A program made the position numbers and the translations under genes. From the IMG/VR virus record IMGVR_UViG_3300037071_001308, positions 1 to 26,041 of that record: a stretch of DNA of 26,041 nt. One strand, 5' to 3'. Every line of letters starts with the position of its first letter. Positions within the stretch are counted from its first letter, which is position 1. Source of the DNA: a virus. The notes beneath the pieces are model-generated. The model was not told the origin of the DNA and ran no database searches. It saw only the letters and a program-made list of their open reading frames with translations. Shown piece after piece: positions 5,568-24,479 of the stretch.

Positions 5568-6047
5568 TCAGGTCCCCCGCTTTCGGCGATTGGCGGCTTG
5601 CTGTTTCGGGGTCGCCCACCGGCAATTGGCGGGCTCGTAGCTGCCATCGTTGTCAATACGATCTATAGACAGGCCAACCCGATAGCCGTTCGTCACCGCC
5701 CAATCACGAAAAGGCTCGAAAACACTCCAATCCGCACACACCGTAATGCCCCTTCCCCCGTAGCGATGATAGTAATACGCCGTAGGGGCGTGACATCGCT
5801 TCTTCATGCCTGACCAAACCTTGTAAAGACGTGTAGAAGCCCCACCGTGCCGCCAACGATTATTTCGTTCTCGCCGAATGCACCCGCAGGATCGACTGTC
5901 TCCTCGCGCAAAATACACACACGGAATAAACTCTGTTCCGCAGTCGCATCGGCACAACCACCGGGGTCTTTCCCCCGAAGCGTTGGCGCGACGAAGAACA
6001 GTCAATCGACCGAATTTTCGGCCAGTAAGGTCGATAAGTGCTGGCAT
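5568..6047 (-). CDS. HNH-like mobile endonuclease family protein (copy B)
   Basis: 159 aa, same family as copies A and [33 protein letters not shown]...[22 protein letters not shown], then [19 protein letters not shown] and QQAANRRKR. The probable zinc site uses the four cysteines of CRCDCG and SCGC. ATG 6047 has CAGGAG 7 bases upstream and fits the family start. An alternative GTG at 6068 has a perfect AGGAGG just after the hydrolase stop; that strong site may be the original ribosome site of the downstream virion gene, displaced by this insertion. Its TGA lies one base before the next ATG, so the insertion was tidy. Confidence 0.7.
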
Positions 6048-6083
6048 GATACGCTCCTGCTGTAACACGCCCTTATACCTCCT

Positions 6084-9367: not shown

Positions 9368-9401
9368 ACTATTCAACCCCTTCAATAGTTTGACTAGCCG
9401 T

Positions 9402-9430
9402 TTGCGTTACTCCGCTGTTAGGGCTAGAAT
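9402..9430 (+). promoter_or_regulatory. Weak promoter-like site before the antisense HNH gene
   Basis: TTGCGT (9402-9407), a 17-base spacer, then TAGAAT (9425-9430) match a bacterial sigma-70 layout with a good -10 and a poor -35. The expected transcription start would fall about one base before the ATG at 9438, implying a nearly leaderless message. It is attractive because this HNH gene runs against the late operon and has no clear Shine-Dalgarno, but one short match is weak evidence. Confidence 0.25.
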
Positions 9431-9437
9431 TAAGAGC

Positions 9438-9896
9438 ATGACGCAACGCGGCCAAGCTCTTCAGTTTTTTGAACAAGCCCTGATCGCCGATACAGAAGAA
9501 TGTATCCTGTGGCCCTTTTTCTTGGACCCCAGCGGTTACGGCATGATTAGCCACCGTCGAGGAAACACAAAAACGCGAGGAGCGCATAATTTGATGTGCG
9601 AGCGCGTACATGGTCTACCTCCTTCCAGCAGTATGGATGCGGCTCATAAGTGTCGGCAGCGCGCCTGCATTAACTGGCGGCATTTGCGCTGGGCCACTCG
9701 TAGAGAAAACGTTGCTGACCAAATTCGAGACGGGGTGCATATCCGGCCGTCGAGAGCCAAGCTGACGCTCGCGCAAGTGCGGAAAATCCGCGCTTCCAAA
9801 AAACCCAGTGCTGAACTCGCGCGCCGTTTCGGCGTCTCCTACTATACTGTCTGGGATATTAGGGCTGGGCGAAGCTGGCCGAACGTAACCGGGTAG
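9438..9896 (+). CDS. HNH homing-type endonuclease with C-terminal helix-turn-helix
   Basis: 152 aa. The core has DAAHKCRQRACINWRHLRW then RRENVADQ (about residues 67-95), a clear H...C...CIN..HL.W...N HNH signature with the catalytic His, the Asn and the metal His all present. A C-terminal segment KLTLAQVRKIRAS...AELARRFGVSYYTVW (about 116-143) looks like a DNA-binding helix-turn-helix, as in many phage homing endonucleases. It is read against the surrounding late genes, and its last approximately 280 bases overlap antisense to the 3' end of the GNAT gene. ATG 9438 is chosen because the frame upstream lacks another ATG; the ribosome site is weak. Likely a mobile gene inserted here. Confidence 0.8.
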   Translation: MTQRGQALQFFEQALIADTEECILWPFFLDPSGYGMISHRRGNTKTRGAHNLMCERVHGLPPSSSMDAAHKCRQRACINWRHLRWATRRENVADQIRDGVHIRPSRAKLTLAQVRKIRASKKPSAELARRFGVSYYTVWDIRAGRSWPNVTG

Positions 9897-10319
9897 ATAG
9901 CGGCATTCGTTCTTGAGCATGTCGAACACCATCACATCCCGAGTGCCTTCGATCCCCAGCCTGCGATAGCCGGTGTACTGGAAACCGAGCCGCTGCACCT
10001 GCTTCAGGGCGCGGCGGTTATGCGGCTCGACTTCGGCGGTGAGCCGTCGTGCTTGCGAGAAGGCCGCCGTGAAGATCGCGCGCAGTACGCGCCGCGACAT
10101 GCAGCGTTGATCAAGCACCAAGATCGTGACGTAACCGTCGAACCAATACTTGAACTCGATAGCGAAAATTCCGGCGAAGCTGTCGTCTTCGTCATAGGCC
10201 CACGCCGAGAACCAGCGCGGCGCTTTGAAGTCGCTCATGCTGAAATCGAGATCGAACGTCCGCGTCAGCAGGGCTTGCCCTGCTGCTGGAAGATCGCCAA
10301 AGTGAGGGGTGTAAGCCAT
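9615..10319 (-). CDS. GNAT-type acetyltransferase-like phage protein with an antisense-encoded tail
   Basis: 234 aa. Residues about 1-140 fit a GNAT fold: strands around WFSAWAYDEDDSFAGIFAIE and YVTILVLDQRCMSRRVL, then AEVEPHNRRALKQVQRLGF.YTGYRR, the usual C-terminal GNAT motif. The acetyl-CoA loop motif is not clearly canonical, so activity is uncertain; such proteins occur in podovirus structural clusters with unknown substrate. From about residue 142 to the end, the coding DNA is the reverse strand of the HNH gene, and composition turns disordered (Ser/Pro/Arg-rich), so the native protein probably ended near LPGYV. ATG 10319 overlaps the stop of the gp10-like gene (TGATG) and follows AGGTGG. 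Confidence 0.65.
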   Translation of the reverse strand: MAYTPHFGDLPAAGQALLTRTFDLDFSMSDFKAPRWFSAWAYDEDDSFAGIFAIEFKYWFDGYVTILVLDQRCMSRRVLRAIFTAAFSQARRLTAEVEPHNRRALKQVQRLGFQYTGYRRLGIEGTRDVMVFDMLKNECRYLPGYVRPASPSPNIPDSIVGDAETAREFSTGFFGSADFPHLRERQLGSRRPDMHPVSNLVSNVFSTSGPAQMPPVNAGALPTLMSRIHTAGRR

Positions 10320-11896
10320 CACACTAGACCACCTAGCTCGTAAAGTACGTCCACGCCGGTCAGCGAGAAGGTGCAGCCTAAAACACTCACGCGCACTCTT
10401 GCGGCACCCACTCGTCCGAGGCCCGTCACGCCCTGCCAGTTCTGCTTCGGCTGGGTGCTGGCGGCCCAGTCGTCAACGTCCCACGTCGCCAAGTCCCACT
10501 CGGCGCCGCCGGAAGGCCCGGCGGTGACTTCGGGCTGGTTGGTCGGGGCTAAGTTGTTGTAGTCAACTTCCAAGTCCATGTACGGGCGCGGCAGTCCGTC
10601 GGTGAGCGAGTACAGCCGCACCATCTTGAAATTCTTCTTGGCGGCGCTCTTGTAGCTCGACCACGCGAAGCGCACGTCGGCGTTGATGGCCGCGCCGTTG
10701 TCGCTAAGGTATTCGGAGCCGCCATAGTAAATCTTGCCGTCTTCGCTGCCGAAGTAGGCGTGGTTGTTGAGCCAGCCCCAGCACCGCGCCGGAACGTCGT
10801 GCCACTTGGTCCAAATTTGATGCGGCATCTTCCGCACCATCTGCTGGTACTTGCCGTTGCCGATCGGCATGTTGCAGATAGCGTGATTGGTGTGGTGGTT
10901 AAGAAACGCCTGCCAGCCGTACTCGTCGCGATGGGACTTCGAGACATCCTCGAAATCCTTCATGACGTTGCGATCGGACTTGCCCAGTTGTTCGGTCTCG
11001 GCGCGGATCATGGTGGACATCGGCACCAACCCCGTCGAGATCATGACGTAGAGGTCGCCGCCGAAATTGATGATGCTGTCCTTACTCATTGGGGCATCAA
11101 AACGAAAAATGCCGACCAGTTTGAAATCGCTGTCGGGATCGACGCCCGAGTAGATCGCGGCTTCGCCGTTACTGGTGAAAATCACCAGCGCGTCGTCGAG
11201 GCCGACGCCGCCGTCAATCGACCAAGTGTAGACCGCGCGGACGCTGCCGCCGCGTTTGAAGATGACGTTGAGCGGAAACAGTTCGAGCGCGCCGGTCTTC
11301 TGCTGAATGGGAAGATAGTAGATCGCGAGGTTCTGGCTGTCGGCGAACCATAGCCGGTTCATGTGCGAGTGCACCTTGTCGAACTTGAGCGGGTCAATCC
11401 ACGGCTCGCCAGTCGGCGCCGTCACAGTTTCGGTCACGAACGTCGCGCCGTCCCACGACACCACGCCGTCGGCGCCGTTGACCATGATGGTGTAGTCGGT
11501 ATCGGAGAGGTCGCTGTAGGACGTCCACGCCCAGTCGTCGCTGCCGTAACCGCTGGCGATTTCGGTACCCGATAGATCATAGATTTTTGTACCTGCCGCG
11601 CAGGCGAGTTCTGACGGCGCGCCGTAGTACGGGATCATGGTCGAGATCGACGGGTTTCCGACGATCTCGCCGACTTGAAGATAGCCGGGCCGCACGGTGA
11701 TGCGGTCGTCCTCAACCACCCAGTTGGTCAGCACCGATGCAAGAAGCGGGTCGGTTTCGCTGAGTTCGGCGTGGTTGGACAACCCTTTCAAGGGCGCGCT
11801 GAAGTGCGCGACCTTGGCCGCAGGGGCTCGCTTGACGCGAACCGGCGTACCCTTGCGGTTCTTCAGCGGCAGCAGTCCTGCGGGGGCCATTCGCAT
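10319..11896 (-). CDS. P22 gp10-like neck / packaged-DNA stabilisation protein
   Basis: 525 aa, beta-rich, with many aromatic-ended strands and repeated W-D segments (for example WDGATFV, WSIDGGVGLDDALVIF, WKHDVP-like WTKWHDVPARCWGWLNN, GKIYYGGSEY). This suggests a beta-propeller as in the P22 tail factor gp10, which plugs and stabilises packaged DNA at the neck. The length is slightly above the P22 protein. The assignment rests on fold-like pattern plus its position immediately after a gp4-like adaptor gene, the order seen in P22-type necks; no close identity is asserted. A tail tubular or other neck protein is the main alternative. ATG 11896 overlaps the upstream TAA (TAATG), indicating coupling. 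Confidence 0.55.
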   Translation of the reverse strand: MRMAPAGLLPLKNRKGTPVRVKRAPAAKVAHFSAPLKGLSNHAELSETDPLLASVLTNWVVEDDRITVRPGYLQVGEIVGNPSISTMIPYYGAPSELACAAGTKIYDLSGTEIASGYGSDDWAWTSYSDLSDTDYTIMVNGADGVVSWDGATFVTETVTAPTGEPWIDPLKFDKVHSHMNRLWFADSQNLAIYYLPIQQKTGALELFPLNVIFKRGGSVRAVYTWSIDGGVGLDDALVIFTSNGEAAIYSGVDPDSDFKLVGIFRFDAPMSKDSIINFGGDLYVMISTGLVPMSTMIRAETEQLGKSDRNVMKDFEDVSKSHRDEYGWQAFLNHHTNHAICNMPIGNGKYQQMVRKMPHQIWTKWHDVPARCWGWLNNHAYFGSEDGKIYYGGSEYLSDNGAAINADVRFAWSSYKSAAKKNFKMVRLYSLTDGLPRPYMDLEVDYNNLAPTNQPEVTAGPSGGAEWDLATWDVDDWAASTQPKQNWQGVTGLGRVGAARVRVSVLGCTFSLTGVDVLYELGGLV

Positions 11897-12869: not shown

Positions 12870-12902
12870 TTGTAATCCTATATGTCTGGTGCTATGGGGG
12901 AA

Positions 12903-12935
12903 GCGGCGGGCTGTGCTCCCCAACACGCCCGCCGC
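12903..12935. other. Perfect 9-bp inverted repeat (stem-loop) between 183-aa gene and HNH-like gene
   Basis: GCGGCGGGC (12903-12911) and GCCCGCCGC (12927-12935) can pair around a 15-base loop, extended by GTG/CAC after a one-base bulge. It lies in the only gap between the divergent 183-aa gene and HNH-like copy C. No T-run follows on either strand, so a simple intrinsic terminator is not supported. It could affect late-operon readthrough or be part of the mobile gene's flank. Confidence 0.5.
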
Positions 12936-12965
12936 TGGATCAGACAACCGTTGAGGGCGGCTATC

Positions 12966-13463
12966 ATGACCATTCGGATTGACTTGACCGATCAACGGTT
13001 CGGGTACTGGACTGTTGTCGATTACAGCCACAGTGACAAAGGCACTTATTGGAATTGCCGGTGTGAGTGCGGCAGGTTTGAAAAAGTCTTGTCCGGCAAT
13101 CTCCGCACTGGAAAAAGTACGCGGTGCCGAGGCTGTATGCCTCGTGCCGAGAACCGGCGTACGCACGGCAATAGCCATACTAAGCTGTACTGGATTTGGG
13201 CCGCGATGCGGGACCGTTGCAGCAACCCGAATTGCCCGTCGTACAAAAACTACGGAGGACGCGGCATCGCCGTCGATCCGCGTTGGCATGACTTTGCGGT
13301 ATTCGCTGCCGACATGGGCCTTCCTCCCGGTCATAAGCTCACGTTGGATCGCGTGAACAATGACGGACCCTATTCTCCCGACAATTGCCGGTGGGCGACG
13401 AGGGTCGAACAAGCGGCCAACAGGCGTCAAAGAAGCTGCTCCCGGAAGCTGGAGGCGACTTGA
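12966..13463 (+). CDS. HNH-like mobile endonuclease family protein (copy C)
   Basis: 165 aa, third member of the family: [24 protein letters not shown], a CRGC pair, [33 protein letters not shown], then [19 protein letters not shown] and EQAANRRQR. It is on the plus strand, against the late operon, between the capsid gene and the 183-aa gene. ATG 12966 has GAGG about 8 bases upstream and matches the start of the other copies; in-frame codons further upstream are non-homologous. The three copies differ clearly in amino acids and codons, so they look like separate acquisitions rather than recent duplications. Confidence 0.7.
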
Positions 13464-13518: not shown

Positions 13519-14472
13519 CTACGTCCCTGTTGCAGTAAGTCTTCCTTGCATTGAGCGGTTAGAGAGGCTTAAAGCCCCCATAAAAGCAAGGTGACGCGTC
13601 ACGGCATCCATGTCGGGCGATTGGTCGGGAAGGTCTAGGCTTTCGAAGTTGCGGCCACTATAGATTTCGAACTTCAGATATTTTGTATTCAAGAAGTAGG
13701 CGCCTGTAATACCCGTCGCGGCACCGTCGAACACCAGCGGCGCAGACTTGTATTTCAGGGTTTCAAAGCCGAGGGCCCCGAGCCTTGCGTCGGCGTATCT
13801 TTGGTTTTCCTGCAAGCCGCTTTCATAGGTGCCGTAGATTTCACCGTCGGTGACGATCAGGTCGGGCTTCTCGGCACCGCGAATGAGCTTCATCCACAAC
13901 GCGTTCATTCCCGCTTTCAGCGCCGGGTACTGAAGACCGGTAGCTCTGGCGACCACCTGAAACTGGTTCTTCCAGAACGTCCAAGTGCCGCTGTCGATGC
14001 CGCCGATGGTGCCGGTGCCGTCCGGCGTGACCATGCCCTTCAAACCCACGAAGGATTTCGCCACCGTGCCGTCACCATAAACCGCCTTGGTGATGTTGTT
14101 CTTCATGGTGGCTTCGGCGTTGTCGATCTTGCCCTCAAGTAAATTCAAGACGCGCTCGCGCGAACGGTTCTTAGCCAGATCGGGGCCCGACAGGGTGACT
14201 GACGCAACGGCGTTCGCCGGGTCGTAATGCGCCTCGGAGATGGTCTCTTTGGTCGCGCGGGACAGCAGCTCGGTGCCGGTATACCAAGCGAAAGTCTCTT
14301 CGGCGTACGTCAGCGGGCAGGCGATGGCGCGACCGCCCTCGATGACGCGCACGCGGTTGCCCTCACGCAAGAGCGCGGTGACCGCGTTGGAGTTCGAGAC
14401 GTTATCGGCGAATTGCTTGTGATAGTTCTGAAGTGTAGTGGCGACGAGTTGGTTGACGGTCGGCTCTGCCAC
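13519..14472 (-). CDS. Major capsid protein
   Basis: 317 aa. The N-terminus (VNQLVATTLQNYHKQFADNV, NAVTALLREGNRV) and segments LEGKIDNAEATMKNNI, then GGIDSGTWTFWKNQF, LVFDGAATG and the closing FLNTKYLKFEIYSGRNF followed by SLSNRSMQGRL all match a widely distributed phage major capsid family with an HK97-like fold. The length is typical for the family. It forms the icosahedral shell around the scaffold encoded immediately upstream. The start is GTG 14472 with AGGAG 7 bases upstream, inside the short gap after the scaffold stop. About 55 bases after its stop lies the 3' end of HNH-like copy C on the opposite strand. Confidence 0.9.
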   Translation of the reverse strand: MAEPTVNQLVATTLQNYHKQFADNVSNSNAVTALLREGNRVRVIEGGRAIACPLTYAEETFAWYTGTELLSRATKETISEAHYDPANAVASVTLSGPDLAKNRSRERVLNLLEGKIDNAEATMKNNITKAVYGDGTVAKSFVGLKGMVTPDGTGTIGGIDSGTWTFWKNQFQVVARATGLQYPALKAGMNALWMKLIRGAEKPDLIVTDGEIYGTYESGLQENQRYADARLGALGFETLKYKSAPLVFDGAATGITGAYFLNTKYLKFEIYSGRNFESLDLPDQSPDMDAVTRHLAFMGALSLSNRSMQGRLTATGT

Positions 14473-14489: not shown

Positions 14490-15689
14490 TCAATACCCGA
14501 CCTCATCGGCAGAACGCTCGATCGCATCTCGTATGCCGCCCTTGGAAGGCCCGTCCGCGCCGTTGGGCCTCGCGACAGGGGTGGTAACCCCTCTCGTGTT
14601 GAGGCGCTGCGCACTACGGGCTCTTGCAATGTCGTTCTGCGACTGGCTGCGATGGTGCTCCGCTGCCAGCATTTGCTTCCTGACATCCGGGTGAGCCCAG
14701 CACGCAGTCTCATATGCTTCGGCCATCTCCCGCTGGGGATTGGCCTTGAACAGGTCGATGATAAGCGGGAGTACGGCATCGAAGTGCGGGCGCAATGGCC
14801 TGCCGTCGCTGCTTTTCTCGTCCGCGAAATGATCGACGCTGGTTCGTGCATAGTGAAGACCTTGTTGCTCGCGGGCTTGTTGCTCCGCGCGCTCGCGCTG
14901 CTGTAGCTGACCCTCAAGGGCCGAGATTTTGCTCGTCGTCTTGCCGAATTGATCGGCGAGAAATTTGACTGCCGGGTCCTTAAGGTCTTCTTCTGTTAGA
15001 CCTGTTGGGCTCGACGGCGACTGGCTCTGCAAGGCTGAGAAAATGCGCGCTGGGTCGAGGCCCATGCGTTGCGTCAGGTCTACCAGCAGCGTGAATTTAT
15101 CCTGTTGGTTCTCTGACGTTCCCAGCTTGTGCCAATTGGCCCATTCTTGGATCGCCTGAACCGGATGAACTCCCGCCTGCTGCAACGACTTCGCGATTTG
15201 CGGGTCGTTGAAAACCGGCGCAAGCGCCTGAGCGAACTGGACTGCTCCCGCACTCGCCTGCGATTTGCGCGTGAACTCGGCTTCCATGTCGCCGTGACGC
15301 TTAAGGAGAAACGCTTGCCCCTCTTGCGGCAGTTTGGCGAAGGTCGCCTTGTCTTCCGCGCTCCAGTGCTCCGGGGCCTGATTGCTTTTCGCTGCGGTTT
15401 GCGCAGCAGCTGGATCAGTCGGCGGCGTCTGGGTATCTTGAATAGGTTTCTTCGGGGCTGGATCGAGGGGTTCGATTGCTTCGCCCGGCTGAGTAGCTTC
15501 CGATTTAGCTACCCAACGACCTGATTTATCGCGCGGTCTCGCGTCTTGCGCAAGGGGTTCATCGTCGAGGGGCCCTTCTGAGGGCTCTTGAGGCTCGACG
15601 GCAGGGCCGTCTTCAAGGTCGTCATACGCCTGTTCAGCAATATCGCGGAGCGAGGACGGCGGTGCGTTTTGCGGATTGTCGGCGGACAT
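14490..15689 (-). CDS. Capsid scaffolding protein
   Basis: 399 aa from ATG 15689 (AAGGA about 8 bases upstream). The first 130 residues are acidic and Pro/Gln-rich, probably disordered. They are followed by a conserved-looking APEHWSAEDKATFAKLPQEG block, FLLKRHGDMEAEFTRKSQ, a helical core, a coiled coil (KISALEGQLQQRERAEQQAR) around 255-285, and a basic C-terminal tail (about 360-399) of the kind that binds the capsid protein. It lies directly before the major capsid gene, the classic position. The first 56 bases overlap the end of the preceding small gene in another frame. A protease-scaffold fusion is not supported. Confidence 0.85.
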   Translation of the reverse strand: MSADNPQNAPPSSLRDIAEQAYDDLEDGPAVEPQEPSEGPLDDEPLAQDARPRDKSGRWVAKSEATQPGEAIEPLDPAPKKPIQDTQTPPTDPAAAQTAAKSNQAPEHWSAEDKATFAKLPQEGQAFLLKRHGDMEAEFTRKSQASAGAVQFAQALAPVFNDPQIAKSLQQAGVHPVQAIQEWANWHKLGTSENQQDKFTLLVDLTQRMGLDPARIFSALQSQSPSSPTGLTEEDLKDPAVKFLADQFGKTTSKISALEGQLQQRERAEQQAREQQGLHYARTSVDHFADEKSSDGRPLRPHFDAVLPLIIDLFKANPQREMAEAYETACWAHPDVRKQMLAAEHHRSQSQNDIARARSAQRLNTRGVTTPVARPNGADGPSKGGIRDAIERSADEVGY

Positions 15690-15918
15690 TTCGGGCTTCC
15701 TTGAAGGCTTGGGGAATATCGCGGGGATCGTAACTCCCTGACTTGTCGAGATCGCGCTCACGCTGGCGGTGCGAAGAAATGGACTGGCCAGTCACGGGTG
15801 ATGGGTAGCTTTCAAAACTCTGCACGGTGGGGGCCGGATGAGTGGACTTCGCTAATGCGCCGGATGGACGGAAGCGCTTGTCAATTATCCGGCCCCTGTG
15901 CAGCACGTAAGTCGGCAT
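15634..15918 (-). CDS. Small protein of unknown function overlapping the scaffold start
   Basis: 94 aa starting MPTYVLHRGRIIDKRFRPSG, a basic N-terminal motif that recurs in small genes before phage scaffolds (recollection). The rest is Arg/Ser/Pro-rich and likely disordered. Its end overlaps the scaffold gene by 56 bases in a different frame. ATG 15918 starts 2 bases after the stop of the 67-aa hairpin-like gene and has GAAGAA upstream. Function unknown. Confidence 0.6.
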   Translation of the reverse strand: MPTYVLHRGRIIDKRFRPSGALAKSTHPAPTVQSFESYPSPVTGQSISSHRQRERDLDKSGSYDPRDIPQAFKEARNVRRQSAKRTAVLAPRYC

Positions 15919-15920
15919 GG

Positions 15921-16124
15921 CTATTTCTTCGTTGTTACGAGTTTCACCGCCCACATCGCGGCATCCTCGAAATGCGTCTGCGCCAGCGCGGCGAGGCGCG
16001 GGTCAAGGTCTTTGTGCTCTTCACAGAAGTCGATGCAATCAGCGGCCCACCGCTTGATCTTGTCCACGTTGCTATCCATCGACGGATTGAAAGCCTCACG
16101 CACGCGATCAGAACCAATACTCAT
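15921..16124 (-). CDS. Acb2/Tad1 hairpin-like small protein (possible anti-CBASS/anti-Thoeris sponge)
   Basis: 67 aa: N-terminus SIGSDRVREAFNPS, then two predicted helices, VDKIKRWAADCIDFCEEHKD and LAALAQTHFEDAAMWAVKLV. The A.....HFEDAAMWAV second helix resembles the A.t.lEeA.MWA signature of the Acb2/Tad1 hairpin family, phage proteins that bind signalling cyclic nucleotides and blunt CBASS or Thoeris immunity. Family assignment is from the motif only and ligand binding is not shown. ATG 16124 begins one base after the previous stop with GAGGAG upstream, so it is coupled to the similar next gene. The generic 'small phage helical protein' remains possible. Confidence 0.6.
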   Translation of the reverse strand: MSIGSDRVREAFNPSMDSNVDKIKRWAADCIDFCEEHKDLDPRLAALAQTHFEDAAMWAVKLVTTKK

Positions 16125-16125
16125 G

Positions 16126-16398
16126 CTATCCGTCTCCTCGATTAAGAATGGCGGCTTCCGCCCACATCACGCTTTCTTCTAGCTTGGTGAACGCCATCAA
16201 CATGCGGCGGTCGCCGGGGCGCGAGCCCATCGTAGTGCCATCAAGGGCATGGAGGACGGCGCGCAGGTTCTGTTCGGCGTCCTTGAGCTGCCGCAGCCGG
16301 TCGAGAATGACTTGTTTGATCGGGTGTCCGGTCTGCGGATCCACCGGGATGCCAATTCCCGGCAGGCTCATTTGGTCGTTGGGTCGCATTCCACTCAC
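16126..16398 (-). CDS. Second Acb2/Tad1 hairpin-like small protein
   Basis: 90 aa. The first 30 residues (PNDQMSLPGIGIPVDPQTGH) look flexible and precede helices VILDRLRQLKDAEQNLRAVL and DRRMLMAFTKLEESVMWAEA, ending AILNRGDG. The AFTKLEESVMWAEAAI motif is close to the signature of the first copy and of Acb2-like proteins. The two adjacent genes are not near-identical, so this is an old duplication or two separate gains of a similar fold. The start is probably GTG 16398, overlapping the upstream TGA by four bases (GTGA); ATG 16389 is an alternative. Function is inferred from the motif only. Confidence 0.6.
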   Translation of the reverse strand: MSGMRPNDQMSLPGIGIPVDPQTGHPIKQVILDRLRQLKDAEQNLRAVLHALDGTTMGSRPGDRRMLMAFTKLEESVMWAEAAILNRGDG

Positions 16399-16748
16399 GG
16401 GTACACCGACGGGTAGGGCGTGCGGGGCGTGATGGTGCCGGTGCGGCCCTCAAGCCCGGTATAGTCCCCGTAGTCGATGCCGATGTCGTAGGCGATGACC
16501 AGTGACGGCACCATCGCCTGCCCCTTGGCGACCTGCGTGCGCGGGGCGTAGGGGGCCTGATCGGCGGCGGTGGTGGCGGCGGCACTTTTCAACGAAACGT
16601 TCGATGTCGCCGCGTTGATGTCATTGCCGGGCGCGCCACCCTGCCAGTCACCTGCCACGCCAGCGCCAGTGTAGCGCGGGCGGTCGAAGTTCGGGTTGGC
16701 GGGGGCCAGCATGGCGGCGGTCAGCGGCAGTGGAAGGCTCTGGGTCAT
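16395..16748 (-). CDS. Virion-operon protein of unknown function
   Basis: 117 aa; begins MTQSLPLPLTAAMLAPANPN and is largely polar and Ala/Thr/Pro-rich, with a short predicted strand cluster (AMVPSLVIAYDIGIDYGDYT) near the end. No domain recognised. ATG 16748 has AAAGGA 6 bases upstream, adjoining the stop of the 141-aa gene. Lies between the portal and the hairpin-like genes. Confidence 0.55.
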   Translation of the reverse strand: MTQSLPLPLTAAMLAPANPNFDRPRYTGAGVAGDWQGGAPGNDINAATSNVSLKSAAATTAADQAPYAPRTQVAKGQAMVPSLVIAYDIGIDYGDYTGLEGRTGTITPRTPYPSVYP

Positions 16749-16751
16749 CGG

Positions 16752-17177
16752 TTATCCTTTCGGACGGACGAAGGGATTGGGCGGGGTCTTGTCTCCAGCG
16801 GGGCCCGAACTCGAACCGGGCTTGGCGGACGGCTTGTCGGTGACGCCCTTGATGCCCTGCGAGAAGGTGGTGCTCTCGGCGGCTGGCGGCGGGCTGCCGG
16901 TCGGATATGGCGTACGCGGGCCGATGCCCTGATCCTCGATGGTCTCGACCGGGCCCGAGGTGGTCTCGGACGCCGGGACGGGCCCGACGCCGGGGACGTT
17001 GCCGTCGGTCGCCTCGCCACCGGCCTTGGCGGCCTTTTCCTGCTCCGTCAGCAGCTCGTCGGGCGGCACGGTGATGCCTTCGGCGGCGGGACGCGGTATA
17101 GGCTCTCGTTCTGGCGAGAGAGTCTTGTTGGCCGGGTGATCCGGGTCCTGATCGCGGTTGTCGATATGGTTCGGCAT
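16752..17177 (-). CDS. Disordered Pro/Gly/Thr-rich protein
   Basis: 141 aa starting MPNHIDNRDQDPDHPANKTL. It has little hydrophobic content and many P, G, T, E and D residues, so it is probably unfolded on its own. No family recognised. ATG 17177 has CAGGAG about 7 bases upstream, directly after the portal stop. Might act as a minor head or assembly factor; there is no direct evidence. Confidence 0.55.
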   Translation of the reverse strand: MPNHIDNRDQDPDHPANKTLSPEREPIPRPAAEGITVPPDELLTEQEKAAKAGGEATDGNVPGVGPVPASETTSGPVETIEDQGIGPRTPYPTGSPPPAAESTTFSQGIKGVTDKPSAKPGSSSGPAGDKTPPNPFVRPKG

Positions 17178-17190
17178 CGGGTAGCTCCTG

Positions 17191-19671
17191 TCACATCATG
17201 CCGGGCGGGGGGCCGCCCATGCCGGGAGGGGGTGGCGACTGGCCGGGGGCCGGTTGGGGCGGGCCCTTGCCGTTCTGACCTCGCGTAGGGCCCGGAGGCG
17301 GGCCACCGGGAGGGCCTTTGTTGCCCGGAGGGCCCGGAGGTGCGGGCGGCGGCGGACGCATCAACGCCCCCGTGGGGTCCATCTGCATGTACGCGCCGAG
17401 CATCTCTTGGTAGCCGTTGATGAGGTCGATGACGCCGCGGGAATGCCTGACGGGGTGCAGCAGCATTTTAATCATCTCAAGTGAGAGGTTAATAATCATC
17501 GGCGGCGGTAAAATTCCTGTTTGTAGAAGCCCCTGAGCGGCGGTGAGGGTCCCACCCACCACCTGCATAATCTGGGCGTTGGCTTCCTTCTCGGTGGCTT
17601 CATCCTGTTCGACGGTGCTGTCGGTCTCGATGTCGATGGAGCAGAACCGGGCGAAGTCGTTGCGCAGGATGTCCATCACGGCAGGGGTGACGTCTTCGCC
17701 GGTCATCCGGGTGAGCGTTTCGGCATCGAAGTTACGGGCAATGAGGTCGGACTTCAGCCGCATCAGATCGCGGACGAAATTAGCGACCGCGGCTTTGACC
17801 CCAGCCATGCGGCCCGAGCCGACCGTGCCTTTCATTCTCTGGGCCGTCGCCGTCTCGTACGGGTTGGTCGCGCCGCGGATGATGTCGGCAATACCAATTA
17901 TTTCATAAATTGCGTTCTTCTGCTGGTCGCGGGAATTATAGAGCTCCTTGAGCGCGTTCACCCACTCAAGTATCGGCACCAGCCATATGTGATTTTGGAG
18001 GCCGCCAGACATAAGATCGACGCCGTCCACAGGGAGCAGCTTGCCGTCATCCGCAGTAAGTAGGTTCGCGATATCCTTGTTCGCAGCGTTGTAGCCGCCA
18101 CGAACTTTGATCTTTGCCGTAAGATCACTGATGCGTCGTGAAGTGTCATCCAGATCGGCGGCGAGATGGGCGTAGAGGTCATAGAACGCCTTCGGGATCA
18201 TTGAGTCGGTGGTGACGACGGAGCAGATCGGTTTCGGGATCGGATAGAAGCCTTGCAGTCCAAGAACATCGGGATCGACCCGCAAAGCGCAGCCGCCGCC
18301 TTCACGAATGATCCAGAGGATTTCGCGAGTCGAGCGGTTCCAAATCTCCCACACCATGGCCTTACGGACCACACTGTCGAGCTTGCTAGCGGCTTTCGGC
18401 GCTGGCCCGCCCCCGACCGGGGACTTTGCGGCGGTTTCCTCAGTCCATTTCAGCAGCTCCGATAGCTTGTTGGCGTTCTGGTATTCCTGAAGTTTCTCGC
18501 TGTCGCCGAACTCACTGAGAAGCGCCTTCTCTGCGAAAAGATGTCGAAACGCGATCCACTCGACGTCGCCGTGTTGGCGCACCGGGTCCAGAAGGATGTC
18601 TTCCCAGAACACGTACTCGTCGTCCACGGTCTCCCAGATTTTGGCGTCCTTCATCTGAGGCTCGCCCGTCGCCGGGTTGGTCAGGGGCCCGCCACTTATG
18701 GGGTCTTCGACGGGTATCTGCTTCAGCACCGGCTTCCAGCGCACGCGACAAATTCCGCGTCCCGGCAAGAGCATGTCTCGGACGGCGGCCTTGACCGCTT
18801 CGTGTGAGGCTTCGTCGTCGACGACGATCTCCAGCGCCTTCTCCATCACCGCAGCGGCGGTCTCGATATCCTGCTGCGCGGGCATTCCCGGGGGCATCGG
18901 CGCGGGCTGCGGCACGGTGCTGGGGCCCACCGGCTGTTGCGGCGGGCTGATGGTGGGGCTGCCCGGCAGCATTCCCGGAGGTGGGGGTGGCGGGACCCCG
19001 CCGTCTTGGGCGGGCGGCGGGGCCCCGGCCCCCGGCGGAAGCCCGACAGCGGCAGGGGGCTGCGCTGGCGGACCCATGGTCGCGCCGGGAGGTAACGGGG
19101 GAGGTAACGGGGGAGGTATCGGCGGGACTGGGCCGCCGGGCGCCGGGCCTGCGGGAGGGCCTTCGGGGCCCAACGGCAGACCACCTGCATCCGGCGGGCC
19201 CATCCCCGGAGGGGGTAGTTGCCCTGAAGGGCTGCCAATGCCAAAGCCCCCCGGAATGATCGGTGGCGGCGGCGGTGGCGTGGGGACCGCTGATTTCTTG
19301 ACGAAACGGCTACGAACGACGGGATCGGGCGGCTTGGCGTAGGCCGCAGGCAGCATGACTTCGGTGTTGGCGTAGAGGATGTTGAAGGCGCTGGAGCCTT
19401 GTGCGGTATTGCCTCTGCCGGTCAGTCGTCCCGGCTTGGGGCGGGTGATCGGGATGTCGCCCCGGTAAATCTGCACGATCTCGCGTCCGCGGGCGCGCCA
19501 ATCCTTTTCGGCACGCTCGGCATCCGCGAGGGCTTTCTCCCAGAAGCTGATGTCGATGTCTTTGGGATCGCCTTGCGCAACTTCCGGCTTGTCGGGATTG
19601 TCAGCTTCTGGCGAGCGCGGGTTGACACCTTGAGGGCGTTCTTCACCCTTGGTGTAACTGGTCTCCGCCAT
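17191..19671 (-). CDS. Portal protein (P22-type) with large Pro/Gly insert
   Basis: 826 aa. Portal regions are recognisable: N-terminal helix with FWEKALADAERAEKDWR (about 43-60), GSSAFNILYANTEVMLPAAY (about 92-111), PPDPVVRSRF; then, after the insert, AAAVMEKALEIVV (about 272-284), YVFWEDILLDP, WEIWNR, long stem helices, and AIYEIIGIADIIRGATNPYE. The dodecameric portal is the DNA entry channel and motor seat. Two oddities: a Pro/Gly-rich segment of about 135 residues (about 130-265) sits where related portals have only a few residues, and the last 55 residues are also Pro/Gly-rich. Both are predicted disordered. ATG 19671 has GGGGG about 8 bases upstream. It lies downstream of the HNH gene. 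Confidence 0.9.
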   Translation of the reverse strand: MAETSYTKGEERPQGVNPRSPEADNPDKPEVAQGDPKDIDISFWEKALADAERAEKDWRARGREIVQIYRGDIPITRPKPGRLTGRGNTAQGSSAFNILYANTEVMLPAAYAKPPDPVVRSRFVKKSAVPTPPPPPPIIPGGFGIGSPSGQLPPPGMGPPDAGGLPLGPEGPPAGPAPGGPVPPIPPPLPPPLPPGATMGPPAQPPAAVGLPPGAGAPPPAQDGGVPPPPPPGMLPGSPTISPPQQPVGPSTVPQPAPMPPGMPAQQDIETAAAVMEKALEIVVDDEASHEAVKAAVRDMLLPGRGICRVRWKPVLKQIPVEDPISGGPLTNPATGEPQMKDAKIWETVDDEYVFWEDILLDPVRQHGDVEWIAFRHLFAEKALLSEFGDSEKLQEYQNANKLSELLKWTEETAAKSPVGGGPAPKAASKLDSVVRKAMVWEIWNRSTREILWIIREGGGCALRVDPDVLGLQGFYPIPKPICSVVTTDSMIPKAFYDLYAHLAADLDDTSRRISDLTAKIKVRGGYNAANKDIANLLTADDGKLLPVDGVDLMSGGLQNHIWLVPILEWVNALKELYNSRDQQKNAIYEIIGIADIIRGATNPYETATAQRMKGTVGSGRMAGVKAAVANFVRDLMRLKSDLIARNFDAETLTRMTGEDVTPAVMDILRNDFARFCSIDIETDSTVEQDEATEKEANAQIMQVVGGTLTAAQGLLQTGILPPPMIINLSLEMIKMLLHPVRHSRGVIDLINGYQEMLGAYMQMDPTGALMRPPPPAPPGPPGNKGPPGGPPPGPTRGQNGKGPPQPAPGQSPPPPGMGGPPPGMM
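18877..19284. repeat. Pro/Gly-coding low-complexity insert within the portal gene
   Basis: This stretch encodes portal residues about 130-265, dominated by P, G, A and Q. It contains three tandem 12-base units (GGGAGGTAACGG type) at 19087-19122, coding PPLP repeats. All changes keep frame. It is extremely G-rich on the plus strand (C-rich in the mRNA sense), unlike the flanking portal DNA. Confidence 0.75.
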
Positions 19672-19713: not shown

Positions 19714-20346
19714 TTATTGCGGTTCCGGAAGCTGCTTTTTAGCCCGACGACGGTGGCGCTTGCCACACGCGCTGGTGCAGAACCGCGCCCGCTTGTCGTG
19801 CGCTGTCGCAGGGGAGCGGCACCCCTCGCACGTAAAGGCGAAAGTCTGGCGCTGGTAGGTGCCGCGACCCGCGCACGTATACGAACAGAAATCCTGTTTG
19901 GCGTAGCGGTTGACGATGAATGTGCCGCCGCATTTCGCGCAGGTCCGCTTCTCGTCGTCGATCCCTGACGCCCTGCGCCACGCGGACTTGCAGGCGTTGG
20001 AGCAGAAGACGCCAGCAGGGTTTCGGGTGATGCGGGTGAAAGTTACGCGACAATAACGGCAGCGTCTGGTGACAGGCGGAGTTTCGGCCAGATGGTGCCG
20101 GACATGGGCGCTCGCCGTCATGAGGGCGAGATTTTCCAGCCGGTTGTCGAGCGGGTCGCCGTTGACGTGGTGGACGACGTATTTTTTGGGGATCGGCCCG
20201 TACGCGGCTTCCCAGATGTCGCGATGCAGCGATTTCCTCCCCGCCCAGTAGTAGACGCGGCGATGCCGCATCGGGCTGAGTGGGTCACGGGTATAGACGC
20301 GGTTTTGGAATGTAATACTTGTTTCGATCATGAGTGTGTAATACAC
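19714..20346 (-). CDS. HNH endonuclease with three zinc-knuckle motifs
   Basis: 210 aa. An HNH core (KKYVVHHVNGDPLDNRLENL, about residues 54-73) contains the double His, the Asn and further His residues (HVRHHL). It is followed by three CxxC...CxxxC treble-clef-like elements (CRYC/CSNAC, CAKC/CSYTC, CEGC/CTSAC) across about 95-195, then a basic tail. Such HNH_3-type proteins are typical free-standing homing endonucleases in phages. It lies between large terminase and portal in operon orientation. The start is uncertain: GTG 20346 has AGGA 5 bases upstream; ATG 20331 lacks a ribosome site. A short inverted repeat covers both. Confidence 0.8.
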   Translation of the reverse strand: MYYTLMIETSITFQNRVYTRDPLSPMRHRRVYYWAGRKSLHRDIWEAAYGPIPKKYVVHHVNGDPLDNRLENLALMTASAHVRHHLAETPPVTRRCRYCRVTFTRITRNPAGVFCSNACKSAWRRASGIDDEKRTCAKCGGTFIVNRYAKQDFCSYTCAGRGTYQRQTFAFTCEGCRSPATAHDKRARFCTSACGKRHRRRAKKQLPEPQ

Positions 20347-20353: not shown

Positions 20354-21769
20354 CTACGTCGCGTCTAGCTCGTGTAGTCTAAACGCGTTGCTTACCCTAA
20401 GTGGGTTTAAATCCTCATCACTTTCGACGCGGGTCCCGAAGGGCCTGCTCATGCAGGCGTAACGACAATCATCAACTGCATGATCCTCACCTTCGGTGTC
20501 TAAATCTTCCGGCCTGTTCTCGTCATGCTGTTGCATGGGAAGGGTGCGAATGATGTCTTTGCAATGATCGACGAAGAACATCATCGGCTCGCCGTCATCG
20601 TTACCCCTGAGACGCCAGCGGACTTGATCCCAGCCGCCCATACGCTTCGGGGTGCTTACTCTGGAATTATCGGCGCGGCGGAAGTAGACGCCCTGTCTGG
20701 CGAACGTCTCACCAATCGAAGGCCCACTGACCACGGCGAAGGCGCTGGGGTCCATGATGCCGTAGGCGATGGGTTCTCTAAAGCCCCGGCCGTCAGTTTC
20801 CCTGCGGACCACTTCCTTAGCTACATTCTCCGCAGGCAAGTGTAAGCCTTTGTTTGGACTACTACTTCCATACCATTCTCTGTATCTCACGATGCTGTTC
20901 TTCGGCAGGAGTTTCTTGTCGTGGATCATGTCCTCTTGGACGACGATCCACCAGCCGATGCTGAAGGGGCTGGCTGATCCCCAGTCCATGCTGCGGAAGC
21001 GTGTCCAGTGCAGCGGAAATCTTGGAGGCGTAATGACATGCCGGTTGGGGTCGAACTCGGGGAAGAACGCGCCCTCGATGATATTCCAATCGCCATCCAG
21101 CCATGCCCGCACCAGCGCGGGGCTTCCTGACGCGCGTAGCCGGTTGATGTAGTTGGGGTCGTTGTTGAGAAGGCTCGGGTTGTCGCTGATCTTGGCCGGG
21201 ATGAAAATCCGTATCAGGCCGGTGTCGGGGTCTTTGACAGGACGATAGGGCCCGTTGTCGATCACCCAGTTTTTGACCCAGTGGTGGCCCGGGCCCCCGG
21301 GATTGCAGGTCGCCCTAAACTGACAGCGCGCGCCGGATGTTGTTCTTAAGGTAGCGAACAATCTGAAGATACCGGCACTGCTTGCGTATTGCGTCAGTTC
21401 TTCGACATAAACTCTGGTGAGGGACCAGCCCTGATAGTTCATGGCATCGGCATCGCTCTCCAGATACGCCATATGGAAAACCGCACCGTTCTTGAACCTG
21501 AACTGCTTCTCCTTGTCCTTCCATTCGGCAGCCGTCCCGTACATTTGCCGTGCCACGTCGATGGTGTCTTTCAAGTCTTCACGGGAGCGTCTCAGCATGA
21601 GGCCCTTCGCATGAGGCCCCCAGTCCTCGGCATGGCACCAGAACTCGCCGAGGCTCGCGAAAGATTTCCCGCCACCTCGGGCCCCGCCGTAAACAACGAT
21701 ATCGGCGGGACAAGTGAGAAAGTGATGCTGGGGGCCCGGCTGGGGCTTGAAGCCAGTTATGATCTTCAG
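20354..21769 (-). CDS. terL: Terminase large subunit, CTG start
   Basis: 471 aa if begun at CTG 21769. The ATPase domain starts DIVVYGGARGGGKSFASLGE (Walker A at about 28-36), with Walker B RVYVEEL (about 119-125) and the coupling motif in CNPGGPGH (about 155-162). The C-terminal nuclease has SMDWGSASPFSIGWW and the late acidic HAVDDCRYA. It packages DNA into proheads together with the small subunit encoded upstream. The first in-frame ATG (21598) would delete Walker A, and no ATG, GTG or TTG exists before it. CTG 21769 has a perfect GGAGG 7 bases upstream and overlaps the small-subunit TGA (CTGA), so it is the favoured start; an error in the sequence or a frameshift from the upstream gene are alternatives. 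Confidence 0.9.
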   Translation of the reverse strand: MKIITGFKPQPGPQHHFLTCPADIVVYGGARGGGKSFASLGEFWCHAEDWGPHAKGLMLRRSREDLKDTIDVARQMYGTAAEWKDKEKQFRFKNGAVFHMAYLESDADAMNYQGWSLTRVYVEELTQYASSAGIFRLFATLRTTSGARCQFRATCNPGGPGHHWVKNWVIDNGPYRPVKDPDTGLIRIFIPAKISDNPSLLNNDPNYINRLRASGSPALVRAWLDGDWNIIEGAFFPEFDPNRHVITPPRFPLHWTRFRSMDWGSASPFSIGWWIVVQEDMIHDKKLLPKNSIVRYREWYGSSSPNKGLHLPAENVAKEVVRRETDGRGFREPIAYGIMDPSAFAVVSGPSIGETFARQGVYFRRADNSRVSTPKRMGGWDQVRWRLRGNDDGEPMMFFVDHCKDIIRTLPMQQHDENRPEDLDTEGEDHAVDDCRYACMSRPFGTRVESDEDLNPLRVSNAFRLHELDAT

Positions 21770-22857
21770 AACAAATCCTCCATCGACGGCACCGGGACCT
21801 TCGGGCCCTTCGGGCCTTTCGGGCCCTTCGGTCGCGCTTGAGCTGGCACGGCCGTAGTTTTAATTCGCCGATTTTTCACTACGACTTTTCCCTTGACACG
21901 TCCCGGTACCTGTCTCTTGCGGAGGGGGACCCGTTTTTCCTTGATGGGGGGTCGGGGGTGTACCCCCTTGCCTAATGGCTCAGAGCGCCCGCGCTCTAAT
22001 AGGCTGGAGCGCCCGCACGCGGCGGGGGTCCCAGTTACCGCCATCGTTGGGGCCCCGTTTTCGGGTCGCCCCCCGGCAGGGCCCGAGCCTCGGGATAAGT
22101 TATTGATCTTATTAGGTTTTTCCAGCCCTGAGCCCCTTGAAGGCTCGGGGCTTAGGGCTTCTTGAGATGTTTGAGCTGTTTGAGGTATTTGATGAGCTAT
22201 TTGAGATGATAAATACTTGATATCATTGGAAAATATACTTTGGGGCCCGGAGGCTTCCTCAAGAGCTTCCTCAAAATTTAACCCTAATAGCGGGGCCCCG
22301 GGGCCCGAAAGCGGGGCTAAAAAGACTTCAGGCTCAGGCTCGGGAGGCTCGGGTTCAGGGCCAGCAGCCCCGGGCCCGTTCAGGGCTGGAAGCCCCGCAA
22401 CCCAGTCCGCGAGAGCTGCTTCACTGGGAGCATCCGGGTCACGACTAGGGCGCCGTATCACTTCCAGAACATTGCGATCGGTGACATGGCCATATACGCG
22501 GGCCAAGCTAAACGCGGCATTGTGCGCGGCGGAATATTCTTCTTTGTGCAAAGCCCCCGTAAAAACGCGTTGCAGCATGTCCGTGACTTGCGGCAGCGTG
22601 ACAACGCCTTGTGTGGCCCGGGCTTCAAGTATGGCGTTAGCCCGTTCCTGAACGCGCCTAACGTGCCACAAATTGGAAGGGGCGTTTCTGTCCTTTGACG
22701 TGAAACCCGCTTTAGAGAACGCCGTCCCCATCGGGACACCGTCGCAAACCATGCGGACAAACTGTTCTTCCCTAGCATCCTGCAAATCACGGCCTAGCAA
22801 CATGACGCCCTTTTCGCGTTTGCCTTGATGCAAGCCCCTTGGAATTAGAGCAGACAT
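21766..22857 (-). CDS. terS: Terminase small subunit-like protein with long disordered C-terminus
   Basis: 363 aa from ATG 22857 (GAGGA upstream). Residues about 25-135 carry the expected DNA-recognition helices (AREEQFVRMVCDGVPMGTAF, WHVRRVQERANAILEAR, then oligomerisation-like SAAHNAAFSLARVYGHV). It should bind the packaging start and stimulate the large subunit. About 200 further residues are unusual: Pro/Glu-rich, then basic, with GPK repeats (RPKGPKGPKGPK), ending SMEDLF. The corresponding DNA has inverted repeats and iterated TTGAG units. Such small subunits are usually 100-200 aa, so either the tail is a true extension or part of it is packaging-site DNA that happens to be open. Confidence 0.75.
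   Translation of the reverse strand: MSALIPRGLHQGKREKGVMLLGRDLQDAREEQFVRMVCDGVPMGTAFSKAGFTSKDRNAPSNLWHVRRVQERANAILEARATQGVVTLPQVTDMLQRVFTGALHKEEYSAAHNAAFSLARVYGHVTDRNVLEVIRRPSRDPDAPSEAALADWVAGLPALNGPGAAGPEPEPPEPEPEVFLAPLSGPGAPLLGLNFEEALEEASGPQSIFSNDIKYLSSQIAHQIPQTAQTSQEALSPEPSRGSGLEKPNKINNLSRGSGPAGGRPENGAPTMAVTGTPAACGRSSLLERGRSEPLGKGVHPRPPIKEKRVPLRKRQVPGRVKGKVVVKNRRIKTTAVPAQARPKGPKGPKGPKVPVPSMEDLF
21777..21781 (-). promoter_or_regulatory. Shine-Dalgarno site that decides the CTG start of the large terminase
   Basis: GGAGG in the mRNA sense, 7 bases before CTG 21769, placed inside the last codons of the small subunit gene (MEDLF). Its ideal spacing is the main support for the non-canonical start. 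Confidence 0.65.
21792..21827. repeat. Four 9-base repeats at the 3' end of the small terminase gene
   Basis: Units of type TCGGGCCCT, period 9, encode GPK-GPK-GPK-VP in the small subunit. They lie just upstream of the large terminase ribosome site. Confidence 0.7.
21954..22205. other. Candidate packaging (pac) region: inverted and direct repeats in the small terminase gene
   Basis: Within the 3' half of the small terminase gene lie GGGGGT/ACCCCC (21954-21967), AGAGCGC/GCGCTCT (21982-21997), a 13-bp stem with one mismatch (22124-22136 with 22147-22159), and four 9-base-spaced TTGAG-type units from 22162, with another copy at 22201. Direct repeats and hairpins inside the small terminase gene recall P22-type pac sites. 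Function is inferred; no cleavage site can be seen. Confidence 0.35.
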
Positions 22858-22991
22858 GGTCTCTTGCTTCCTCAAAACGCGGGGCTCGAAAATATAACCC
22901 CGAAGGGGGGTTGACAATCGGGCCCCGATCGTTGACAAGTGGGGCTCGTTACTCGTTTCCCGTTACTCCGAAAAACAAAAGGGCCCCCGTT
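22858..22991. promoter_or_regulatory. Divergent regulatory region between the late and plus-strand units
   Basis: On the plus strand, TTGACA at 22911 and 22932 could be -35 elements, though no matching -10 is seen. On the minus strand TATATT (complement of 22891-22896) lies 15 bases from TTGTCA (complement of 22912-22917), a weak promoter for the late block. Also present are a palindrome ATCGGG-C-CCCGAT (22917-22929), GGGGCTCG twice (22881, 22941) and CGTTACTC twice (22947, 22961). The TTGACAATC stretch and later CCCGTTA segment recur before the next plus-strand gene. Confidence 0.4.
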
Positions 22992-24479
22992 ATGCTTACC
23001 ATCAATACCCGTATTCCTACCATCGCTCGCGGCAAGATTAGATCGCTCGTGAAAGCGCACGCTGGCTGGCGCACGTTCATAGAAGGGAAAGGCAAAGTTT
23101 CAGCACAAGCCCTCAACTCTGAAATTTTAGAATTTGCTTTGACCGATCCGGGTCTCGTTACCGCGATCGAAGCTATTCTGAGTGCTTCCCCGGCAAACGC
23201 GGCGACCGATGCCCCCGAAACAATGGATGAAAACGATATGGCCGACATGGAAAACGACGACATGGCCAACGCCCCCAGCCTTACAGGTTTTGCTTTGAAC
23301 GATATCCTGTCAAGCGTAGATCAATTCCTATCGCCCTTAGTTCGGAGTGAACTTAGCAACGTTCTGGGCCCTGTACTCGCGGCAGCAAATAAACCTGCCG
23401 TAGAGATTGAGCGCGTCATTGAGGTCGAGCGTATTGTTGAGGTAGCCCCCGGCGAAGCCCCCCGCGTATCGGCGCCAAAAGCCAGACGCGACAAGCGCGT
23501 AACATTCAGAACGTTGTACCCGTCACGTTCCACAAAATGCAGCGCGTATTTTGACGCCCCTTTGACACTTTGGACGGGCGCCGCGAATAGCCCTGCGGCT
23601 GATCCGTTCTACGTTGTTGATAAGCAACACATGGCGTTGCTCATGACGGGCATGGAACGCAGCACAAATATCTGGCTCACCGGCCCGGCTGGCACCGGCA
23701 AGTCAACTTTGCCGGAACAAGCCGCTGCCACGCTAGGACGGCCCTTTGTAAAAATAGGTATGACGCGGCAAACCGAAGTTGAGGCTTTGATCGGCGGCAT
23801 GGCGCTGCGCAACGGTGCAACCGTGTGGGAAGATGGCGCGCTTATCAAAGCTATGCGCCAGCCGGGCACAGTGATCTTGATTGACGAACTCACGTTTGCC
23901 CCGGCGGGCGTACAAGCGATCATTCAGCTTGTAGCGGATGACCATCGGTCGATTACGCTGCCAACGGGCGAGCTTGTAAAGGCGGCGGACGGCGTTGTTT
24001 TTGTAGTGGCAGATAACACCGCAGGCAGCGGCGACGAAGGCGGTTTATATGCTGGCACCAACGTTTCAAACGCGGCCCTCGTAACCCGTTTCAAGCGTAT
24101 GATCCATGTTGATTATTTGTCGGCGCAAAAAGAAGCCGAAGCTCTCGCCAATCATACCAAATGCCCAATGGAAGCAGCGCGACACCTCGCGGATTTTGTC
24201 GCGCAAGTCCGCCGTATGCCAGCCATGCAAGGCGTTGTTATTTCACTACGGCAAATGGTCGGTTTCGTACAATGCGTCCAAGACGGTTTTAGCTCAAAGG
24301 ACGCTTTTGTCGCAACCATATCATCCCGTATGCCAGCAACCGAACGGGCTACAATTGACGGGCTTTGCGATCTTCGATGGAACGAAAACTTTGAGGCTTT
24401 AGTCCACGGCAAGGCAGCCCCCGTTATCGCCCCGAGTGATAGCCCTGCGGCGACAGCGTTCGGGGACACATCTTTCTAG
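22992..24479 (+). CDS. MoxR/CobS-like AAA+ ATPase
   Basis: 495 aa from ATG 22992 (AAGGG about 9 bases upstream). The N-terminal 200 residues hold an RGKIRSLVKAHAGWRTFIEG helix, an acidic Met/Asp segment (MDENDMADMENDD) and a heptad-like VIEVERIVEVAP linker. The AAA+ module then has Walker A TGPAGTGKST (about 230-239), Walker B VILIDELTF (about 294-302), sensor-like FVVADNTAGSGD (about 337-348) and an arginine-finger candidate in LVTRFKR. This is the MoxR/CobS type of ATPase, which works with VWA-domain partners; the next gene encodes one. Phage copies are known, but substrates are generally not established. No CobN-like partner lies in this window. Confidence 0.85.
   Translation: MLTINTRIPTIARGKIRSLVKAHAGWRTFIEGKGKVSAQALNSEILEFALTDPGLVTAIEAILSASPANAATDAPETMDENDMADMENDDMANAPSLTGFALNDILSSVDQFLSPLVRSELSNVLGPVLAAANKPAVEIERVIEVERIVEVAPGEAPRVSAPKARRDKRVTFRTLYPSRSTKCSAYFDAPLTLWTGAANSPAADPFYVVDKQHMALLMTGMERSTNIWLTGPAGTGKSTLPEQAAATLGRPFVKIGMTRQTEVEALIGGMALRNGATVWEDGALIKAMRQPGTVILIDELTFAPAGVQAIIQLVADDHRSITLPTGELVKAADGVVFVVADNTAGSGDEGGLYAGTNVSNAALVTRFKRMIHVDYLSAQKEAEALANHTKCPMEAARHLADFVAQVRRMPAMQGVVISLRQMVGFVQCVQDGFSSKDAFVATISSRMPATERATIDGLCDLRWNENFEALVHGKAAPVIAPSDSPAATAFGDTSF

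Follow-up and report, generated by a model that had tools for sequence, protein, structure and literature searches.

A probable Acb2-type sponge gene inserted beside a divergent hairpin relative in the head operon of a soil phage

Introduction

The closest described counterparts of the genes reported here are the Acb2 and Tad1 (Thoeris anti-defence 1) proteins, which share the Acb2/Tad1 hairpin and belong to a family that sequesters the alarm signals of bacteria. The hexamer of T4 Acb2 (Vs.4; PDB 7UQ2) binds three cGAMP molecules through contacts at Y8, H11, K23, R79 and F82, and hexamers need packing by L29, A66, A73 and A77 (PMC10097602). Changing T68 to Met weakens Acb2 binding (PMC12657230). 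The T4 gene encodes 88 aa and lies outside any head operon, unlike the two genes described below. Acb2 of Pseudomonas phages (p26; PDB 8H2J, 8H2X) has the same hairpin as both of our proteins but shows low sequence identity to them and a longer inter-helix loop. Tad1 (PDB 7UAV, 8KBB) differs from both in having an N-terminal beta-sheet domain.

Here, we compare these systems with two adjacent small genes (15921-16398) in the head operon of a soil phage, represented by a linear 26-kb IMG/VR virus record (26,041 nucleotides; hereafter the window). The initial annotation had proposed that they form a coupled two-component set of cyclic-nucleotide sponges with possibly different ligand preferences. 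The reading we favour, with fair but not high confidence, is that the downstream gene (B) is an inserted Acb2-type sponge and the upstream gene (A) a core member of the family with another ligand or a head-linked role.

Results and discussion

Organisation of the head operon

The operon is encoded on the minus strand in the order terminase, HNH-type gene, portal, two small genes, A, B, a small gene, putative scaffold and major head protein. The terminase large subunit (20354-21598; phrog_979 and phrog_2) is separated from the portal protein (17191-19671; phrog_12082, E 9.3e-118) by the HNH-type gene (HNH_3 endonuclease, 19714-20346). Two small head-module genes recognised by synteny follow, one directly after the portal (16752-17177) and one before A (16395-16748). 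Gene A (16126-16398), encoding a 90-aa divergent hairpin protein, starts with GTG and overlaps the stop of the preceding gene. Gene B (15921-16124), encoding a 67-aa Acb2-type hairpin protein, starts with ATG 1 nt past the stop of A, and its likely ribosome-binding site, GAGGAG (16134-16139), lies inside the end of A. Downstream, a small conserved gene (MPTYVLHRGR..., 15634-15918), syntenic in relatives, overlaps the frame of the putative scaffold (14490-15761). The latter had no PHROG or Pfam match and was assigned from synteny and because it immediately precedes the major head protein (13519-14472; phrog_9953, E 3.8e-78). Both reading frames reported initially were present, and their placement between portal and scaffold could be refined to two genes between portal and A and one between B and scaffold. 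Late expression of A and B would be expected from their position in the operon.

Family membership and fold

Both proteins scored above the curated gathering cut-off (27 bits) of the Pfam model for the Acb2/Tad1 hairpin, PF24729, as the initial annotation had anticipated (A, 33.0 bits, E 6.8e-8; B, 39.1 bits, E 8.5e-10). The same model gave zero matches across 14 control genomes, which excludes a chance match. B also matched phrog_717 (E 0.002), the group containing T4 Vs.4. The PHROG matches of A and B were unnamed families, and neither PADLOC nor NCBIfam provided a name for either protein. Single-sequence phmmer searches against the PDB returned chance matches only, e.g. G-protein gamma for B. 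For the profile of A, T4 Vs.4 and Tad1 were the best solved structures, both as weak matches, the profile reaching the Tad1 hairpin with its motif SRENACALTHVEEALMW.

AlphaFold2 models, all of single chains, showed two long antiparallel helices in each protein, confirming the helical-hairpin layout that had been noticed in the sequence. In B (pLDDT 95.6), helices spanned residues 3-7, 18-36 and 42-63, matching the short N-terminal segment and two long helices of T4 Acb2. In A, helices spanned residues 29-53 and 64-89, with pLDDT above 90 in the hairpin part. The best viral fold matches of the B model were annotated Acb2/Tad1 hairpin proteins (TM 0.91 and 0.88); in the Foldseek search against the PDB, solved Acb2 was not among the matches listed. 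Searches of the PDB with the A model (Foldseek, VIA-align) placed Acb2 and Tad1 amid many unrelated helical hairpins, the match to CmTad1 having Z 5.5 and 29% identity over 49 residues. Neither model had a Tad1-type N-terminal beta-sheet domain (no strands of at least three residues). A and B are not near-identical, as first observed; BLASTP gave no alignment between them and profile-profile comparison aligned the second helix alone. Taken together, membership of both A and B in the Acb2/Tad1 hairpin family is supported.

Conservation of ligand and packing positions in B

Residues of A and B were mapped to T4 Acb2 by sequence alignment of this short domain. In B, the aromatic contact Y8 corresponds to F12 (57/57 homologs) and the basic contacts K23 and R79 to K24 (56/57) and K61 (57/57), whereas the H11 and F82 positions hold Ser and Thr and are not kept. 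The packing alanines were equally constant, with A48 (A66) in 57/57, A55 (A73) in 56/57 and A59 (A77) in 57/57 homologs; small residues at these hexamer-interface positions were present both in B and in the close group of A. As the aromatic and two basic ligand positions are kept in nearly all 57 homologs, B is probably a genuine cyclic-nucleotide sponge.

Insertion, spread and selection of B

To place A and B in their lineage, 80 related virus contigs were gathered via the major head protein. The nearest relative (L207), whose gene A is 87% identical, carries the same operon without B, and there the stop of A overlaps the next start (gap -1). Aligning the two at the junction revealed exactly one additional reading frame in the window, B; the inserted stretch (15919-16125) consists of this frame plus three junction bases. 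In L207, GGGGAG, the counterpart of the GAGGAG of B, precedes the gene following A. The empty site indicates that B was inserted singly and recently beside a resident A. Of the 29 A-bearing relatives checked, 28 have the next gene directly behind A. In 21 of the 29, the next gene started -1 to 6 bases past the stop of A; in the remaining seven our script missed the start, which the printed sequence shows directly past the stop of A. Contig L034 has 168 extra bases between A and the next gene (5383-5552), with a possible frame of 51-65 aa unrelated to B, and the junction downstream of A may be an insertion spot.

Elsewhere in the lineage, B occupies other positions. In three relatives (L009, L034 and L181) it is found between terminase and portal, either ~4 kb from A or on a fragment that stops short of A. 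In the window, this interval is split by the HNH_3 gene. In L061, a B-type gene occupies the slot of A and A itself is missing. The closest protein kin of B (81-93% identity) come from unrelated phages, two of which (L127 and L128) carry it directly before the terminase. Compared with copies in phages lacking detectable head-protein similarity, B retained 93% protein identity at 76% DNA identity, with synonymous differences saturated and nonsynonymous differences at ~0.05. B is under extreme purifying selection.

Relatives of B were detected on 367 viral contigs, and B-type genes were also found in bacterial genomes ranging from Bradyrhizobium to Dyadobacter. Clear orthologs, recognised by the pattern RVRxxFNPS...EEAAMWAVK, occur in soil phages, prophages, Enterobacter EcP1 and Flavobacterium FCL-2, usually as a single gene with no A-type partner; our literature search found no description of any member. 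In other soil phages, B often lies beside genes for terminase, portal, head or internal virion proteins, but the B-type genes of cultured EcP1 and FCL-2 are located in accessory regions outside head modules. On this comparative evidence, B is a mobile, strongly constrained single gene. B remains near-identical while the neighbouring head genes differ strongly between phages, which makes a phage head protein an unlikely partner. A constraint that persists as the gene passes from one phage to another, unrelated one suggests that the partner is a small molecule or comes from the host, the simplest candidate being a host small molecule.

A is a core gene with altered ligand positions

Every close relative covering the slot has gene A there, flanked by the TIG-type gene on one side and the small pre-scaffold gene on the other. 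A belongs to the core of this phage lineage and has a fixed place in its head operon. Distant relatives have hairpin genes there too, but weaker ones. At the dinucleotide-contact positions of T4 Acb2 (Y8, H11, K23, R79, F82), A does not show the T4 pattern. Among its 26 close homologs the aromatic of the Y8 position is gone, and the R79 position holds Ala in 23/26 and a basic residue in none, although Lys or Arg stands there in 12/12 of the distant homologs. The K23 position, basic in 23/26, is the sole basic contact position left. Other features of the family are kept. These include R64 at the hairpin tip (26/26 close and 10/12 distant homologs), the packing alanines A69 and A80, and a Thr matching T4 T68. 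Across the close group, Ala is found at the A66 position in 26/26 and at A77 in 25/26, with Ala, Ser or Thr at A73 in 24/26. Both R64 of A and R43 of B align with an Arg that Pseudomonas-phage Acb2 has five residues before its A66-equivalent; in PaMx33 Acb2 this is R67, which we take to be a trinucleotide contact. Ahead of the hairpin, and absent from T4 Acb2, A has a nearly invariant N-terminal stretch of its own, RPNxQMxLPGxGxPVDP, modelled by AlphaFold2 with low confidence.

On this pattern, the likeliest readings are that A has switched to another ligand, perhaps a cyclic trinucleotide, or that it was recruited to a role linked to the head. It is an older, divergent relative, long resident in the head-gene cluster, and may or may not still be a sponge. 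The suggestion that A and B differ in ligand preference is plausible since A lost dinucleotide-contacting residues and kept others, but the same loss would allow A to be no sponge at all.

The strongest alternative, credible though in our judgement the less probable, is that A is a head-assembly or virion protein keeping only the hairpin fold, leaving B as the sole anti-defence gene and no sponge pair. The fixed place of A in all close relatives fits such a role, as do its invariant N-terminal stretch, its frequent translational coupling to the next gene (gap -1) and a divergence in step with that of its head-gene neighbours (mean identity 59%; flanking genes, 53% and 54%). Loss of the basic R79-equivalent, which distant relatives in the slot retain, is also in keeping with it. 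However, the hairpin-tip Arg, the packing alanines and the Thr matching T68 are still conserved, purifying selection on A exceeds that on the flanking genes (one pair compared), and ligand binding is what the rest of the family is known for. Moreover, a dedicated head part would hardly allow the B-type replacement seen in L061. A more specific version of the sponge reading, to which we give only a low probability, is that A acts as a head-operon sponge that no longer takes dinucleotides and binds another immune signal, such as a cyclic trinucleotide, via the conserved hairpin tip, and that the lineage widens its range with the mobile dinucleotide sponge B, placed directly behind A in the window.

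Adjacent pairs are rare

Whether pairing is a rule was assessed from the frequency of adjacent family members. Among ~175 virus and genome records, two carried adjacent family members, the window and contig L131. In L131 (1145-1591), an Acb2-like gene (PF24729, 68.8 bits; SYRDL...IKD...SREVSLARTKLEEAVMWAVK) with canonical residues is separated by 10 bases from a downstream B gene with 87% identity to that of the window; a terminase of another kind comes next. No head protein with detectable similarity was found on L131, a short contig, so that the head gene perhaps lies outside it. The occurrence of a second pair in an unrelated phage indicates that pairing arose at least twice, yet is rare. 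The few other records with two family members had them kilobases apart or on separate contigs, and A without B and B without A were far commoner than both together. Within the bacterial family that includes a B-bearing Bradyrhizobium, nine of 249 genomes had one match each and none had two. With L131 as the one further adjacent pair over the ~175 records and 249 genomes, we rejected the view that sponge pairs are widespread. A BLAST comparison did not support L129 having the same scaffold after B as the window, and a literature search for tandem or paired Acb2 genes returned nothing relevant.

These data bear on the possibility that A and B co-evolved as a two-component set of sponges, perhaps forming a hetero-oligomer whose members prefer different ligands. 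Compatible with it are the direct adjacency and coupled translation of the two genes, their complementary residue patterns, the independent pair in L131 and the carriage of both genes at a distance in L009 and L034. On the other hand, both members of the L131 pair keep the dinucleotide residues, and split specificity is therefore no rule of pairs. A dedicated set is possible but improbable, as the adjacency in the window stems from a recent insertion, missing from L207, that is rarely repeated. The initial proposal of a sponge-family pair thus stands as regards shared membership of PF24729 and the cyclic-nucleotide sponge pattern of B, whereas the coupled set is doubtful given that most relatives carry A alone.

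Chance resemblance between two short helical proteins, for which the short domain and the weak solved-structure searches might speak, is very improbable and was ruled out by two independent scores above the curated cut-off, the empty control genomes, family residues conserved over 57 and 38 homologs, and the match of the B fold to named family members. Least probable of all is tandem duplication, which adjacency and shared family would suggest but the missing BLAST alignment, the closer kinship of B to genes of other phages and the pre-insertion state of L207 rule out.

Proposed role of A and B

Under our favoured reading, B, which entered the operon immediately behind A as a precise insertion of one gene, would be translated together with the head genes from the ribosome-binding site inside the end of A. 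Its product would assemble into an oligomer and sequester CBASS-type (perhaps Thoeris-type) cyclic nucleotides made when head proteins appear. Gene A, the older hairpin of the lineage core, would bind another ligand or serve the head, with its dinucleotide-contacting residues gone and its packing alanines and hairpin-tip Arg retained. This anti-defence reading is well grounded for B and one of two possibilities for A. A phage prohead protease can trigger CBASS (PMC12409349), and the major head protein can trigger Thoeris (PMC12043709). This fits expression at the head stage, as a sponge produced alongside head proteins would arrive just when these defences begin to signal.

The abundance of B-type Acb2 relatives, on hundreds of soil-phage contigs with near-invariant ligand positions and often beside terminase, portal or head genes, gives these observations wider relevance. 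To our knowledge, characterised sponges come from few phages, namely T4, Pseudomonas phages and Tad1 phages. Acb2 itself has been described as relatively rare and restricted (PMC11722364). Should B prove to bind immune nucleotides, counter-defence by signal sequestration would be far commoner in soil than assumed, and placed where head-triggered defences demand it. Gene A offers a natural test of whether a hairpin can change its ligand or become a head part.

Other features of the window

Several further genes in the window resemble mobile elements or accessory functions. HNH_3 endonuclease genes occur twice inside the structural module (19714-20346 and 9390-9896). Three interrelated genes, at 12882-13463 (plus strand), 5568-6068 and 1949-2485 (both minus strand), resemble HNH/AP2-type mobile endonucleases with no Pfam match, and the plus-strand copy sits within the minus-strand head-tail operon. 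In the tail region, 9615-10322 encodes an acetyltransferase-like small protein, also with no Pfam match. Divergently transcribed on the plus strand are an AAA_5/MoxR-like ATPase (22839-24479) and a large protein (24551-26041); the latter had no Pfam match but contains SSQGSEG repeats and a DASGSM motif resembling that of vWA domains, and the two look like a MoxR-vWA pair. The portal protein carries a long proline/glycine-rich insertion (~residues 135-270) that is present in relatives too. Finally, the product of the gene before A is ~117 aa in the window and ~200 aa in many relatives, where it has a C-terminal TIG domain (e.g. L007, 3663-4265; PF01833, E 6e-15), indicating that this domain was gained or lost within the lineage.
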